A stretch of DNA of 64,000 nucleotides from an uncultured SAR86 cluster bacterium (lineage in GTDB: Bacteria > Pseudomonadota > Gammaproteobacteria > Magnimaribacterales > Magnimaribacteraceae), in assembly GCA_902618945.1 (NCBI GenBank), contig CACNCK010000004.1, positions 1-64,000 of the forward strand. Direction: 5' to 3'. Below are positions 19,553-25,161 of the stretch, one piece after another; position 1 is the stretch's first letter, and each line of letters opens with the position of its first letter. The position numbers were made by a program, and so were the translations under genes. A model generated the notes under the pieces. The model did not search any database and had not been told where the DNA came from. It saw only the letters and a program-made list of their open reading frames with translations.

Positions 19553-20023
19553 TCAAAGATATTCTACTTTCTCAATCTCATATTCAGTAAGTCCGCCTGG
19601 AGTTTCTAATTTGATTAAATCTCCTTCGAACTTTCCAATTAATTTTTTTGCCAAGGGTGAAGCAAATGAAATTTTACCTGCACTAGCATCTGCTTCATCC
19701 TCTCCAACAATTTTATAAGTAAGTGATTTTTCTAAATTGGAGTTATAAACTTTTACTGTAGTTCCGAATATTACTTTATCCGAAGATTCGATGGTTGTGA
19801 CATCAATTACTTGAGCACTAGAGAGTTTTGATTCAATGTCGCGGATTCTGGCTTCAGCTAAACTCTGTTCTTCTTTTGCAGCATGATATTCTGCATTTTC
19901 TTTTAAATCGCCGAATTCTCTAGCCGAGGCTATAGCATCAATTATTCTAGGCCTATCTTCCGATTTTAGTTTTTTGAGCTCTTCTCTTAGAAGAACTTCT
20001 CCTTCTTTTGTAATTGGATTCAT
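19553..20023 (-). CDS. greA: Transcription elongation factor GreA
   Basis: GreA enters the RNA polymerase secondary channel and stimulates cleavage of backtracked RNA. The 156-residue protein has an N-terminal coiled coil with the acidic tip ([19 protein letters not shown]) and a C-terminal FKBP-like domain ending with [11 protein letters not shown]. It overlaps the end of carB by four bases (ATGA). The carAB-greA order is common in gammaproteobacteria. Confidence 0.97.
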
Positions 20024-23000
20024 TTTGAGATTTTATCATGAAGGTCTTGAAGTCTCTCAACCGACCAAAGGTCTTTATTGCGTATTACTGAGCAAACTGC
20101 CCTTCCGCCTTCTAATGTCGTGGTGCAATAAATTTTTTCTTCTAAGGCAGTTCTTCTGATTGAGGAGGAATCAAGAATAGATTGTTTCCCTTCTGTGGTA
20201 TTCACAATAAGGTCAACTTGTCCATTTTTCATCGCATCTACAACATGAGGTCTTCCCTCGGCTACTTTTTTAACAATCTCAACCTTTATCCCTGCTTCAT
20301 TAATGTGCCTTGCAGTACCTTTGGTAGCAATGATATTAAATCCTAAATCAAGAAACTCCTTTGCAAGTTCTGCTACGAAAGGACGATCTGAATCCCTCAC
20401 ACTTAAAAAGACAGATCCTTCTTTGGGAATAATCTCTCCTGCACCTAACTGTGCTTTAGCATAAGCTTCAGAAAAACTGGAGCCGACTCCCATTACTTCT
20501 CCAGTTGATTTCATTTCAGGTCCTAAAATTGGGTCAACGCCTAAGAATTTATTGAAAGGAAAAACTGCCTCTTTAACAGAAAAATATTCAGGAACTATTT
20601 CCTCATTGAAATTTTGATCCTTGAGGCTTATGCCAGCCATGCATAATGCTCCGGCTTTAGCTAATGATCTTCCTATACATTTTGACACAAAGGGTATTGT
20701 CCTAGACGCTCTTGGATTTACTTCAAGTAAATACAATTCTTCATTGTAATATGCTAATTGAACATTTATCAGTCCTATTGCTCCAATTTCAATGGCTATT
20801 TTTTTAACCATATGAGTGATTTCAGTAACCAATTCTTCAGATAAATTATAAGGAGGTAAAGAACATGCAGAATCACCAGAATGTATCCCTGCCTGCTCAA
20901 TATGTTGGAGAATCCCACCAATAACAACTGATTCACCATCGCATACTGCTTCAATGTCCATTTCTACCGCTTGATTGAGAAATCCATCGAGAAGTACAGG
21001 ACTTTTTGCACTTGCTTGCACTGCCTCAACAAGATAATTTTCAAGGTCTGTTTTTTTATAGACCACTTCCATAGCTCTCCCGCCAAGAACATAAGAAGGT
21101 CTCACTACAAGAGGGAAACCAACCTTTTCGGAAACTTCCATCGCTTCCTCAACACTAGAAGCAATTCCATTTGGAGGTTGTTTCAAGGAATGTATGCTTA
21201 CAAATTCTTGGAATCTACCTCTATCTTCTGCCAGATCAATTGAATCAGGGGATGTGCCCAAAATTGGAACACCATTCTTTTCGAGCTCATCTGCTATCTT
21301 CAAAGGCGTTTGTCCACCATATTGAACAATTACACCCTCGGGATTTTCGATGTCCGTAATGGCAAGAACATCTTCGACGGTGATTGGCTCAAAATATAAT
21401 CTATCTGATGTATCAAAATCAGTTGAAACTGTTTCGGGGTTACAATTGACCATTATTGTTTCGTATCCTTCTTCTCTCAAACCAAGAGCAGCATGAACAC
21501 AACAATAATCAAACTCTATACCTTGGCCTATCCTATTGGGTCCTCCCCCCAAGACCATAATTTTTTTATTTTGAGTAACATTAGCCTCGCATTGTTCTTC
21601 ATATGTTGAGTACATATAGGCGGTAGAGGATTCAAACTCAGCAGCACATGTATCAACTCTTTTAAATACCGGATTGAGATTTAATGATTTTCTCAGATCT
21701 CTAACTTGATCTTCTGAGCTTCCAATCAACTCACCGATTCTTGAATCAGAAAAACCTTTTCTCTTTAAGGCATATAATTGCTCATAGTCTAAATCTTTTA
21801 AGGAAACATCTTCAAGACTTACTTCTGCATCTATTAGGTCTTTGATTTGAATCAAAAACCAGGGATCAATCTTAGAGTACTCAAATACTTCTTCGGATGT
21901 TAAACCATTTCTAAATCCATCTGCTACAAACCAAAGTCTATCAGGGCTAGGTATGCTTATTTTTTGCTTGAGCGTCTCAAATTCATCATCCTCATTAAAA
22001 ATCGGATCAAGACCACTGCGTCCGGTCTCAAGACCTCTGATAGCTTTTTGCAGGGATTCTTGAAATGTCCTACCAATAGCCATTACTTCTCCCACAGATT
22101 TCATTTGAGTTGATAAGACTGGATCTGTTTGGATAAACTTTTCAAAGTTGAATCTGGGAATCTTAGTTACTACATAGTCTATAGAAGGTTCAAAGGACGC
22201 CGGTATAACACCGCCAGTAATATCATTACTCAACTCGTCAAGTGTATAGCCAACAGCTAGTTTTGCAGCAACCTTAGCTATCGGGAAGCCAGTTGCTTTT
22301 GAGGCTAAAGCTGAAGATCTGGAAACTCTTGGATTCATCTCAATAATTAGCATCTCACCATCTTCTGGATTAATGGTGAATTGGACATTTGAACCTCCAG
22401 TTTCGACACCGATTTCCCTGAGAATATCAATGGAAGCATTTCTCATAATTTGATATTCCTTATCAGTAAGAGTTTGAGAGGGAGCAACAGTTATTGAATC
22501 TCCAGTATGAACTCCCATTGGATCAAGATTTTCAATACTACAAACGATTATGCAATTATCATTCTTATCTCTGACAACTTCCATTTCAAATTCTTTCCAA
22601 CCACCAAGAAATTTATCAATAAATATTTCAGAAGTTGGTGAAAGTTCTAACCCTCTTTTACAAATTTCGTCAAATTCCTCGATGTTGTATGCAATTCCTC
22701 CACCAGAACCACCCATAGTGAAGTTTGGTCTTAACACACAAGGAAAACCAATTCTTTCCAAAAGAATGTGTGCCTCTTCTTTATTGTGCGCTAAACCAGA
22801 TTCGGGAACCTTTAATCCTATCTTCTCCATACAAGCTGCAAATAACTCTCTATCCTCAGCCTTATCAATTGCCTCTTTAGTTGCTCCTATCATCTCAACA
22901 TTATGTTTTTTTAATATACCCCTACTATCTAAATCTAGAGCAGCATTCAACGCAGTTTGACCCCCCATTGTTGGCAATAATGCATCTGGTTTTTCTTTTT

Positions 23001-23235
23001 CAATTATTTTTTCAATAGTCTCCCAATGAATTGGTTCGATATATGTGGCATCAGACATACTTGGGTCTGTCATAATTGTTGCAGGATTTGAGTTGATTAA
23101 AATAACTCTATAACCATCTTCTTTTAATGCCTTACATGCTTGAGCTCCAGAATAGTCAAATTCACATGCCTGACCAATTACGATAGGACCGGCTCCTATT
23201 ATTAAAATTGAATTTATGTCCGTTCTTCTAGGCAT
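20020..23235 (-). CDS. carB: Carbamoyl-phosphate synthase large subunit
   Basis: CarB makes carbamoyl phosphate from bicarbonate, ammonia delivered by CarA and two ATP, supplying pyrimidine and arginine synthesis. At 1071 residues it is full length. The two homologous ATP-grasp halves begin with [21 protein letters not shown] and [20 protein letters not shown], and the C-terminal MGS-like allosteric domain follows. It starts eight bases inside carA and overlaps greA by four. Confidence 0.98.
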
Positions 23236-24343
23236 TTTTGGTCATATTTTTATCAAATGTTGTGAATAGATATGCCAGATCATGAGGTCCAGGGCTAGCT
23301 TCAGGATGGCCTTGAAAACTGAAAAAAGGTTTAGATGAATGCTGGATTCCTTGGATAGTTCCATCGAATAACGATTTATGAGTTATCTCAACATTTGCAG
23401 GTAAGGAATTTTCTTCGACTGTGAAGCCATGATTCTGAGAGCTTACTGAAACTTTTCTAGTTTTAAGATCTTGGACAGGATGATTTGCGCCATGATGACC
23501 AAATTTCATTTTTGATGTCTTGCCACCCAATGCTATTGCCAGTAGTTGATGACCTAGACAAATACCGAATATGGGCATACTGATTTGTATTAATTCTTTA
23601 ATTGTCTCAATGGCATAGATACATGGTTCAGGATCGCCAGGTCCGTTAGATAAAAACACCCCGTTTGGTTTGAAATCTAAAATTTCTTCGCAAGAAGTTT
23701 TTGCGGGAAAAATTTTTAGTTCATACCCTTGATCGACTAATATTCTTAATATATTTTTTTTTATTCCGAAATCTAAAACTGCAACTCTAAAATTAGATTC
23801 ACCATTACTTCCTCTCCATGTTCCTTCTTTCCAATCATAACTAGATTCGGTCGTAACTTCTTTTGCAAGATCTAAACCGGCCAAACCTTCAAAATCTTTC
23901 GCTAAAGCTGCTGCTTTCTTTAAGTCAACTGAGTTACCAGTAAATATTGACGCTGACTGAGCACCTTTTTCTCTTATTATTCTTGTCAATTTTCTTGTAT
24001 CTATATCAGATATTCCCTGAATATTATTTCTAATGAGGTAATGGGATAAAGTTTCAGTATTACGCCAACTACTCTCCACCAGAGAAAGCGACCTTATAAC
24101 CAATCCAGAACACCAAATTTTATCTGATTCAGTATCCTCACTATTTGTTCCTGTATTTCCAATATGTGGGTAAGTTAAAGTTACTATTTGCTTAGCATAT
24201 GAAGGATCTGTAAGAATTTCTTGATAACCTGTCATAGAAGTATTGAAAACAATTTCACCATTTACCTGTCCTGAAGCGCCAATACTTATTCCTTCGAAGA
24301 TTGTTCCATCTTCTAATGCAAGTATTGCTTTATCTTTACTCAT
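23228..24343 (-). CDS. carA: Carbamoyl-phosphate synthase small subunit
   Basis: CarA is the glutamine amidotransferase subunit that delivers ammonia to CarB. The 371-residue protein has an N-terminal domain with [17 protein letters not shown] and a class I GATase domain with the nucleophilic Cys in [11 protein letters not shown] and the catalytic His/Glu in [12 protein letters not shown]. The start overlaps the pyrF stop by four bases (ATGA), so carAB is translated from the same mRNA as pyrF. In Pseudomonas the upstream neighbour would be dapB. Confidence 0.98.
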
Positions 24344-25023
24344 GCAATTTTTAAATTGATTTCATCAAGAGCGGCTCTGGGATTTTGTGAACCAGTAATG
24401 GGTCTTCCTATAACAAGAAAATCAGAACCATTCTTAATTGCTTCTTCGGGTGTTGATACTCTAATTTGATCATCTGAATCAGATCGGAATGGTCTTATTC
24501 CAGGAGTCACTGTTAAAAAATCTTGACCAAATTTGTCTTTGATATCTTTTGTATCTGAAGATGCACACACAACTCCATCTAACTCACATTCTTTAGCCAA
24601 GGTGGCCAGTCTTAAAACCTGCTCTGAAACTCCCTGCAAGCCAACTTCTTTAAGAGCATCTTCTGATAGACTTGTTAAGACTGTGACAGCGATTAATAAG
24701 GGGGGTTGATCATAGCCTTCTAAGGCCCTACTTGAGGCTTCCAACATTTTAATGCCACCAGAGGCATGAACATTTACCATCCATACTCCAAGATCTGCAG
24801 CAGATCTTACTGCTTCGTAGACAGTATTTGGAATATCGTGAAACTTTAAGTCTAAAAATATTTCAAATCCCAGCCTTTTCAGATCATTAATCACTTGAGG
24901 ACCTGCAGAAGTGAATAATTGGTTTCCCACCTTTAGTCTGCAGATTTTTGGATCAAGAGTTTTGGCAATATTTAAAGCATTAATATGATCAAGGTCTAAC
25001 GGAATAATGATTCTATTTTTCAT
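24340..25023 (-). CDS. pyrF: Orotidine-5'-phosphate decarboxylase
   Basis: PyrF decarboxylates OMP to UMP, the last step of de novo UMP synthesis. The 227-residue TIM barrel carries the catalytic [10 protein letters not shown] motif, [10 protein letters not shown] at the start and VTPGIRP near the phosphate site. It heads the 18.7-kb minus-strand block and is joined to carAB by an ATGA overlap, so the first and last enzymes of the pathway share one mRNA. A promoter, a 30-codon leader ORF and an intrinsic terminator precede it. Confidence 0.97.
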
Positions 25024-25026
25024 ACT

Positions 25027-25119
25027 TTAATCAAGAGAATTGATAAAATTTGACGAAAAAAAAGCGAACCAGAAAGGTATCTGAAGTTCGCATTTTTGAT
25101 TTTTAAGGCCTAATGGCAT
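25027..25119 (-). CDS. Putative pyrF leader peptide (PyrL-like), 30 codons
   Basis: An uninterrupted ORF starts about six bases after the predicted pyrF transcription start, runs through the terminator hairpin and its T tract, and stops (TAA) three bases before the pyrF ATG, in the same frame. Its sequence starts MPLGLKNQKCELQIP and continues FWFAFFSSNFINSLD. No Shine-Dalgarno sequence is visible. E. coli PyrL is likewise a leader whose ORF crosses the pyrBI terminator, coupling ribosome and polymerase when UTP is low. The role here is inferred; a 30-codon ORF can occur by chance. Confidence 0.5.
   Translation of the reverse strand: MPLGLKNQKCELQIPFWFAFFSSNFINSLD
25056..25091 (-). terminator. 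Attenuator-like intrinsic terminator in the pyrF leader
   Basis: On the minus strand GCGAAC pairs with GTTCGC, continued after a 2-base bulge by CAGA/TCTG around loop TACCTT, and followed directly by eight Ts. It lies between the pyrF promoter and the start codon, 33 bases before the ATG, and inside the leader ORF. The plus strand also has T-rich sequence after the hairpin (to 25104), so it could act in both directions. No plus-strand gene ends nearby, so attenuation of pyrF is the best explanation. Confidence 0.8.
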
Positions 25120-25124
25120 TAAAA
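25101..25124. repeat. Inverted repeat at the pyrF transcript 5' end
   Basis: TTTTAA and GCC pair with GGC and TTAAAA around a TAAT loop, with one mismatch. It begins at or just after the predicted transcription start and contains the leader ATG. It could be an RNA pause hairpin ahead of the terminator or a DNA operator; the sequence does not decide. Confidence 0.45.
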
Positions 25125-25131
25125 CCACACT

Positions 25132-25161
25132 ATAATAAATGTATGTTTCCCTGTCTATCAA
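25132..25161 (-). promoter_or_regulatory. Predicted sigma-70 promoter of pyrF-carAB
   Basis: TTGATA at 25161-25156 (5 of 6 to TTGACA) and TATTAT at 25137-25132 (5 of 6 to TATAAT) are 18 bases apart on the minus strand. Transcription would start near 25125, giving an initial sequence close to GGTTTTAATG. The -10 region is nearly palindromic, so TATAAT also reads on the plus strand (25131-25136) toward map. Confidence 0.6.

Follow-up and report, generated by a model that had tools for sequence, protein, structure and literature searches.

The window, the whole 64,000-nucleotide stretch of SAR86 DNA that was analysed, comes from a genome of 1.37 Mb that is 82% complete; SAR86 are abundant, hard-to-culture marine bacteria with small genomes. 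On its minus strand lie pyrF (24340..25023), carA (23228..24343), which shares 4 nt with the end of pyrF, and carB (20020..23235), the next gene of the operon, which overlaps carA. The carAB genes form the entry to pyrimidine synthesis and also feed arginine synthesis. Behind carB follow greA, rlmE, ftsH, glmM, tpiA, tRNA genes, rimP, nusA, infB, rbfA, truB and pnp (named from their translations), and this order downstream of carB is the usual one in Gammaproteobacteria. Terminator-like sites are not enriched in the block behind carB, the 18.7 kb of translation genes over which control by the leader was tentatively proposed, with 11 found and 11.1 expected from shuffles; one of them lies at 14357-14341 on the minus strand. 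All parts of the leader described here lie upstream of pyrF and, like it, on the minus strand. A methionine aminopeptidase gene, recognized by its sequence, starts further upstream (25184, plus strand) and is divergent from the leader, so the terminator in the leader is not part of any upstream transcript and sits between a promoter and the operon. The 111-nt leader RNA has a predicted folding energy of -25.5 kcal/mol (z -4.3), which none of 200 shuffled sequences reaches. At the Rfam gathering threshold the whole window yields matches to tRNAs only, and the leader matches no curated RNA family.

The promoter is of sigma-70-like type and consists of a -35 element, TAGACA (25152..25157, minus strand), and a -10 element, TATAGT (25129..25134, minus strand). 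In a comparison set of 86 SAR86 relatives, covering 87 loci, 16 genera and three families (f1, f2 and f3), the pattern T[AG]GAC[ATG]-17-TA[TAG]AGT (TRGACN-17-TANAGT) occupies a constant position at 87 of 87 loci, with a spacing of exactly 17 bp and with TATAGT, TAAAGT or TAGAGT as the -10 element. The initial annotation had placed the promoter at TTGATA-18-TATTAT (25161/25132). These hexamers are present in the sequence but are not conserved across the loci, and this candidate was replaced by the overlapping TAGACA-17-TATAGT (25157-25129). The position of the start changes with it: the conserved promoter predicts transcription from approximately 1-5 nt before the leader ATG, and not about six bases before it as had been proposed. 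At the usual promoter spacing the start would fall in the UUYUA just 5' of the AUG, so that the leader open reading frame (ORF) would be nearly leaderless. In a pattern scan of named genomes, 27 matches fall in records of SAR86 or unclassified Gammaproteobacteria, together with one outlier.

An inverted repeat, TTTTAATGCC-ATTA-GGCCTTAAAA (25101..25124, minus strand), begins at the predicted start of the transcript or close to it; it is a predicted RNA hairpin whose left arm contains the leader AUG and which has an energy of -6.6 kcal/mol at this locus. The consensus of the repeat is UUYUAAUGC/GCAUUARAA, and the loop length varies between families. Among 15 distinct variants from the three families, 88% of the cells are paired, compared with 34-47% when the arms are slid. 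One position carries a compensatory change from U-A to C-G through U-G intermediates; the covariation counts as a whole are not above the shuffle control, and for this reason covariation is not used as main evidence for either hairpin of the leader. The pairing of the 5' hairpin is retained rather than strongly covarying. A genome search for the inverted repeat, allowing up to 3 mismatches, returns a single copy, and the promoter-plus-start pattern (two mismatches) is likewise single in each f1 genome that has it. By eye, no similar leader precedes the two aspartate/ornithine carbamoyltransferase genes, including pyrB. In the f3 leaders (L121-L150), ATTTTAGCTCATTAAAA is nearly invariant and has two possible pairing partners, the 5' TTTTAATG and its own ATTTTA; these alternative pairings suggest a switchable structure.

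The leader ORF (25027..25119, minus strand) starts with the ATG at 25119, reads MPLGLKNQKCELQIPFWFAFFSSNFINSLD and ends with a TAA at 25027; it has no Shine-Dalgarno sequence. Its length of 30 codons plus stop, and the position of the stop three bases before the pyrF ATG (25023), agree with the earlier description. In 80 loci (genus g9 excluded), stops interrupt this frame at 3 of 2,121 codons, compared with 149 of 2,113 and 173 of 2,075 in the other two frames. When each genus contributes a single locus, the bias against stops in this frame, counted in the region after the 5' stem, has a P of approximately 1e-6, with the reservation that the genera are interrelated and that neither locus nor genus counts are independent. 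In the short spacer after the terminator, the same one-per-genus count gives 2/77 stops versus 6/75 and 3/69, a very small sample. The counts over the 80 loci and the one-per-genus test after the 5' stem indicate that the open frame of the leader is under constraint. In 15 of 16 genera, spread over the three families, the ORF reaches the start of the downstream gene, and its stop ends between -15 and +17 nt from that start, an outcome with a chance of 0.27 for a random spacer. In f3 the stop mostly overlaps the downstream start by one base (TAATG, TAGTG). In genus g1 the distance from the leader ATG to the pyrF ATG is 95, 96, 97 or 98 nt, so that, measured against the leader, pyrF occurs in every one of the three frames; despite this varying spacing, the leader frame is open and ends within -3 to +16 nt of the pyrF ATG. 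The exception is g9, a genus of f2 (L091-L099), in which the ORF has 8-15 codons and its stop falls in the stem of the terminator or immediately ahead of it. A ribosome on this short ORF would still cover the stem, and g9 offers a natural test of the distance that the ribosome needs to travel. The sequence of the leader peptide is not common to the families, as would be expected if the act of translation matters and not the product.

Within the ORF lies an intrinsic terminator (25056..25091, minus strand), composed of the hairpin GCGAACUUCAGAUACCUUUCUGGUUCGC at 25091-25064 and a U8 tract at 25063-25056. The 10-bp stem and T8 are as first annotated, with the addition of a 2-nt bulge, which is probably why a generic pattern scan missed this terminator. 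With a hairpin of -7 kcal/mol or lower and a run of five or more T behind it as the criterion, the terminator is present at 57 of 57 f1 and f2 loci and in 4 of 456 f1/f2 shuffles (the separate shuffle sets give 1/232, 3/224 and 2/240), and this hairpin-plus-T5 search finds it at 0 of 30 f3 loci. In 18 f1 sequences, 92% of the cells of the stem are paired, compared with 30-46% when slid, and covariation is not above the shuffle control. The ORF is open across the stem in nine f1 and f2 genera, all but g9. Relatives that keep the hairpin and break the ORF would have spoken against an attenuator; this is not what is seen in nine of the ten terminator-bearing genera, g9 being a partial exception. 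The constrained ORF that overlaps an intrinsic terminator thus upholds the PyrL-like layout proposed for this locus.

The position of pyrF behind the leader is particular to g1, the genus of this window, and to two genomes placed in the neighbouring genus g6. Among the g1 loci, all 16 whose upstream region is intact retain promoter, TTTTAATGCC, stem-loop and U-tract as well as the ORF through the terminator, and the leader is kept while PyrF identity among the g1 relatives falls to 63%. In the other genera of the family, pyrF is mostly located elsewhere, and the leader stands directly before carA, with an ORF that passes through the terminator and ends near the carA start. The leader also precedes carA in the f2 and f3 relatives. 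Genus g6 is mixed, with pyrF between leader and carA in L020 and L021 and the leader directly before carA in L049 and L059. Where pyrF is inserted, the leader ORF ends at pyrF instead of carA. The comparison indicates that the leader belongs to carAB, its ancestral partner being carA, and that pyrF is a later insertion. Two parts of the initial annotation do not hold against this distribution, namely that the attenuator is a device of pyrF and that the mechanism belongs to one lineage, as the leader occurs in three families of the order. As a separate observation, pyrF of L002-L017, L020 and L021 is relocated from behind a lapA-like gene to its place between leader and carA. In f3 (L121-L150), the leader ORF and the start hairpin are kept without the intrinsic terminator; the ORF is therefore not for attenuation alone. 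No such leader is found before carA in f4 (L151-L170). These f4 loci belong to smaller genomes, and their carA starts shortly after a TATAGT-like element.

The region before the downstream gene differs along the same division. A Shine-Dalgarno-like motif is found there at 0 of 57 f1 and f2 loci versus 27 of 30 in the terminator-less f3. Its absence is weak, supportive evidence, because SAR86 uses the motif sparingly (10 of 32 genes of the window have one) and because genus g11 of f2 has a partial Shine-Dalgarno sequence before the downstream gene with a favourable predicted duplex. The lack of the motif, combined with the stop positions, suggests reinitiation at carA or pyrF by ribosomes that have finished the leader.

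Conservation extends to the promoter, the AUG, the open frame, the position of the stop, the hairpins and the U8 tract, and on this set of parts a mechanism can be modelled in which the leader would be translated, the terminator suppressed, the downstream gene reached by reinitiation and a pyrimidine signal read. The leader is accordingly best understood as a probable ribosome-dependent attenuator that serves carAB in SAR86, and pyrF-carAB in the present genome, with translational coupling, a reading to which we assign a probability of roughly 0.75. Only a ribosome that initiates at the AUG within the weak 5' hairpin would travel through the leader. Following closely behind RNA polymerase, it would cover the terminator stem, and transcription would go on; it would then finish on the start codon of the following gene or slightly beyond it, where it could reinitiate. 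Without translation of the leader, the terminator hairpin would form, and transcription would end after approximately 65 nt. Coupling of this type is known at the E. coli pyrL hairpin, where a coupled ribosome cuts termination in vitro (PMC10135430). Terminators a few bp past a stop codon are nearly silenced, and those lying less than 100 bp into a coding region are usually active, since the ribosome has not caught up yet (PMC4824070). A ribosome-gated leader therefore needs a pause, and no element that would cause one was identified in this leader.

The ORF, the terminator within it and the pyrimidine genes behind it are all present as in a true PyrL-type attenuator, in which low UTP slows RNA polymerase on a U-rich template, so that the ribosome closes the gap and keeps the hairpin from forming. 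Slow transcription at low UTP could occur on the U8 tract and on the UUUU immediately 5' of the AUG. The interval between the AUG and the stem measures only 25-29 nt, however; its U content has genus means of 21-37%, and its longest U run is 4. In E. coli pyrL, slow transcription takes place on a template with 49% of positions needing U (PMC10135430). Sensing of UTP by U-rich pausing does not fit this composition; with no U-rich tract from the AUG to the stem, sensing by slowed elongation is unsupported, and the PyrL-type reading as a whole is rather unlikely. The most likely, though speculative, place for the sensor is at or near initiation, where the choice of start site or slippage on the U-run 5' of the AUG would alter the AUG hairpin, and not in pausing during U-rich elongation. 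In a specific form of this idea, judged unlikely, the pyrimidine signal would be read at initiation by the U-run (UUYU), combining 5'-end switching of the pyrC kind with attenuation of the PyrL kind in a single 65-nt leader. At high UTP, transcripts would start within the U-run or slip on it, and the 5' U bases would pair with the A-rich right arm, closing the near-leaderless AUG and leading to termination. At low UTP, shorter 5' ends would leave the AUG open, allowing ribosome entry, readthrough and reinitiation at carA.

Other explanations assign the conservation to different functions. The near-perfect dyad TTTTAATGC-N5/6-GCATTAAAA overlaps the predicted start site, and the palindrome could be a DNA operator for a repressor at the promoter, with terminator and ORF secondary. 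This has a low probability, given its single genomic copy at up to 3 mismatches, arm spacing that shifts by more than 10 bp in f3, an ATG that is kept even where the palindrome is spoiled (a U-C mismatch in g1), and an open frame and stop position left unexplained. The terminated leader of approximately 65 nt, with a hairpin, an A-rich single strand and a terminator with U8, also has the layout of a small RNA, and in Pseudomonas syringae the carA leader gives rise to a small RNA, P32 (PMC4997734). Conservation driven by targets of such a trans-acting RNA leaves the frame-specific lack of stops and the stop beyond the terminator unexplained and is improbable as the main cause, although a small RNA could coexist with attenuation. 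Arginine is a further candidate signal. The arginine repressor ArgR (PF01316) is found in 0 of 56 SAR86 genomes, with a positive E. coli control, which rules out ArgR control of carAB; carAB also feeds arginine synthesis, for which another sensor would then be needed. Classical amino-acid attenuation, in which the ribosome stalls at control codons such as those for arginine, is very improbable in this role: the leader peptides of the three families share no codon run, Arg codons are rare and scattered, and, with no overlap between the 5' stem and that of the terminator, the predicted folds show no evident antiterminator.

The preferred ribosome-dependent attenuator resembles E. coli pyrBI (pyrL) in having an ORF of a few dozen codons across an intrinsic terminator before a pyrimidine gene, a peptide whose sequence seems irrelevant and a stop near the next gene. 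It differs in serving carAB (here with pyrF), in its predicted near-leaderless AUG within a 5' hairpin, in its lack of a U-rich pausing tract and in its shorter length. Attenuation of carAB with a leader peptide is already known from Pseudomonas aeruginosa, where, as recounted in the later literature, a leader peptide was reported and a stem-loop is needed for the pyrimidine response (Kwon 1994, in PMC4997734). According to the same account, deletion of the stem-loop abolishes this response (PMC4997734). The single promoter, the stem-loop and the reported leader peptide before carAB have their counterparts in SAR86. P. aeruginosa carAB is also described there as responsive to arginine, with ArgR sites reported, unlike SAR86, which is without ArgR (PMC4997734). 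The order of promoter, terminator and carA in SAR86 is the same as in Pseudomonas, with pyrF intervening in g1 and part of g6 and the terminator restricted to f1 and f2. The P. syringae carA leader P32 has a promoter and a rho-independent terminator, and disruption of its stem-loop raises expression; unlike in SAR86, no leader ORF was found in it (PMC4997734). Short ORFs at or near the 5' end that control the genes behind them are known from Sinorhizobium meliloti trpL (PMC7298713), and mycobacterial polycysteine sORFs, as cited in PMC13236596, occupy a similar position. Both are described as sensing amino acids through their own codons, unlike the SAR86 leader. The beta-proteobacterial carA motif SRC-12-1 is, like the SAR86 leader, a structured RNA before carA (PMC8632094); it is presented as an extended imperfect hairpin and riboswitch candidate, and the passage on it mentions neither a leader ORF nor a terminator. 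New in SAR86 are the hairpin around a near-leaderless AUG, a leader that has no pausing tract, the coupling of stop to start and the placement of pyrF behind the leader.

In 40 carA loci of other Gammaproteobacteria (L199-L238), an intrinsic terminator lies upstream of carA in at least 22, in a scan that required T4 and thus missed weak tails, and an ATG frame runs through the terminator in 4. Attenuators of carA look widespread in Gammaproteobacteria even without an ATG leader ORF. Many of these upstream regions carry a TRGACN-type promoter.

In conclusion, the order to which SAR86 belongs presents a natural series, with ORF and terminator in f1 and f2, the ORF alone in f3 and neither in f4, to which g1 adds a gene inserted behind the leader and an ORF end retuned to pyrF. 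This series lets the role of leader translation in transcription be separated from its role in translational coupling. If the proposed mechanism is true, a cis-acting switch of approximately 65 nt would allow these streamlined bacteria to control the entry to pyrimidine and arginine synthesis with no dedicated regulator.
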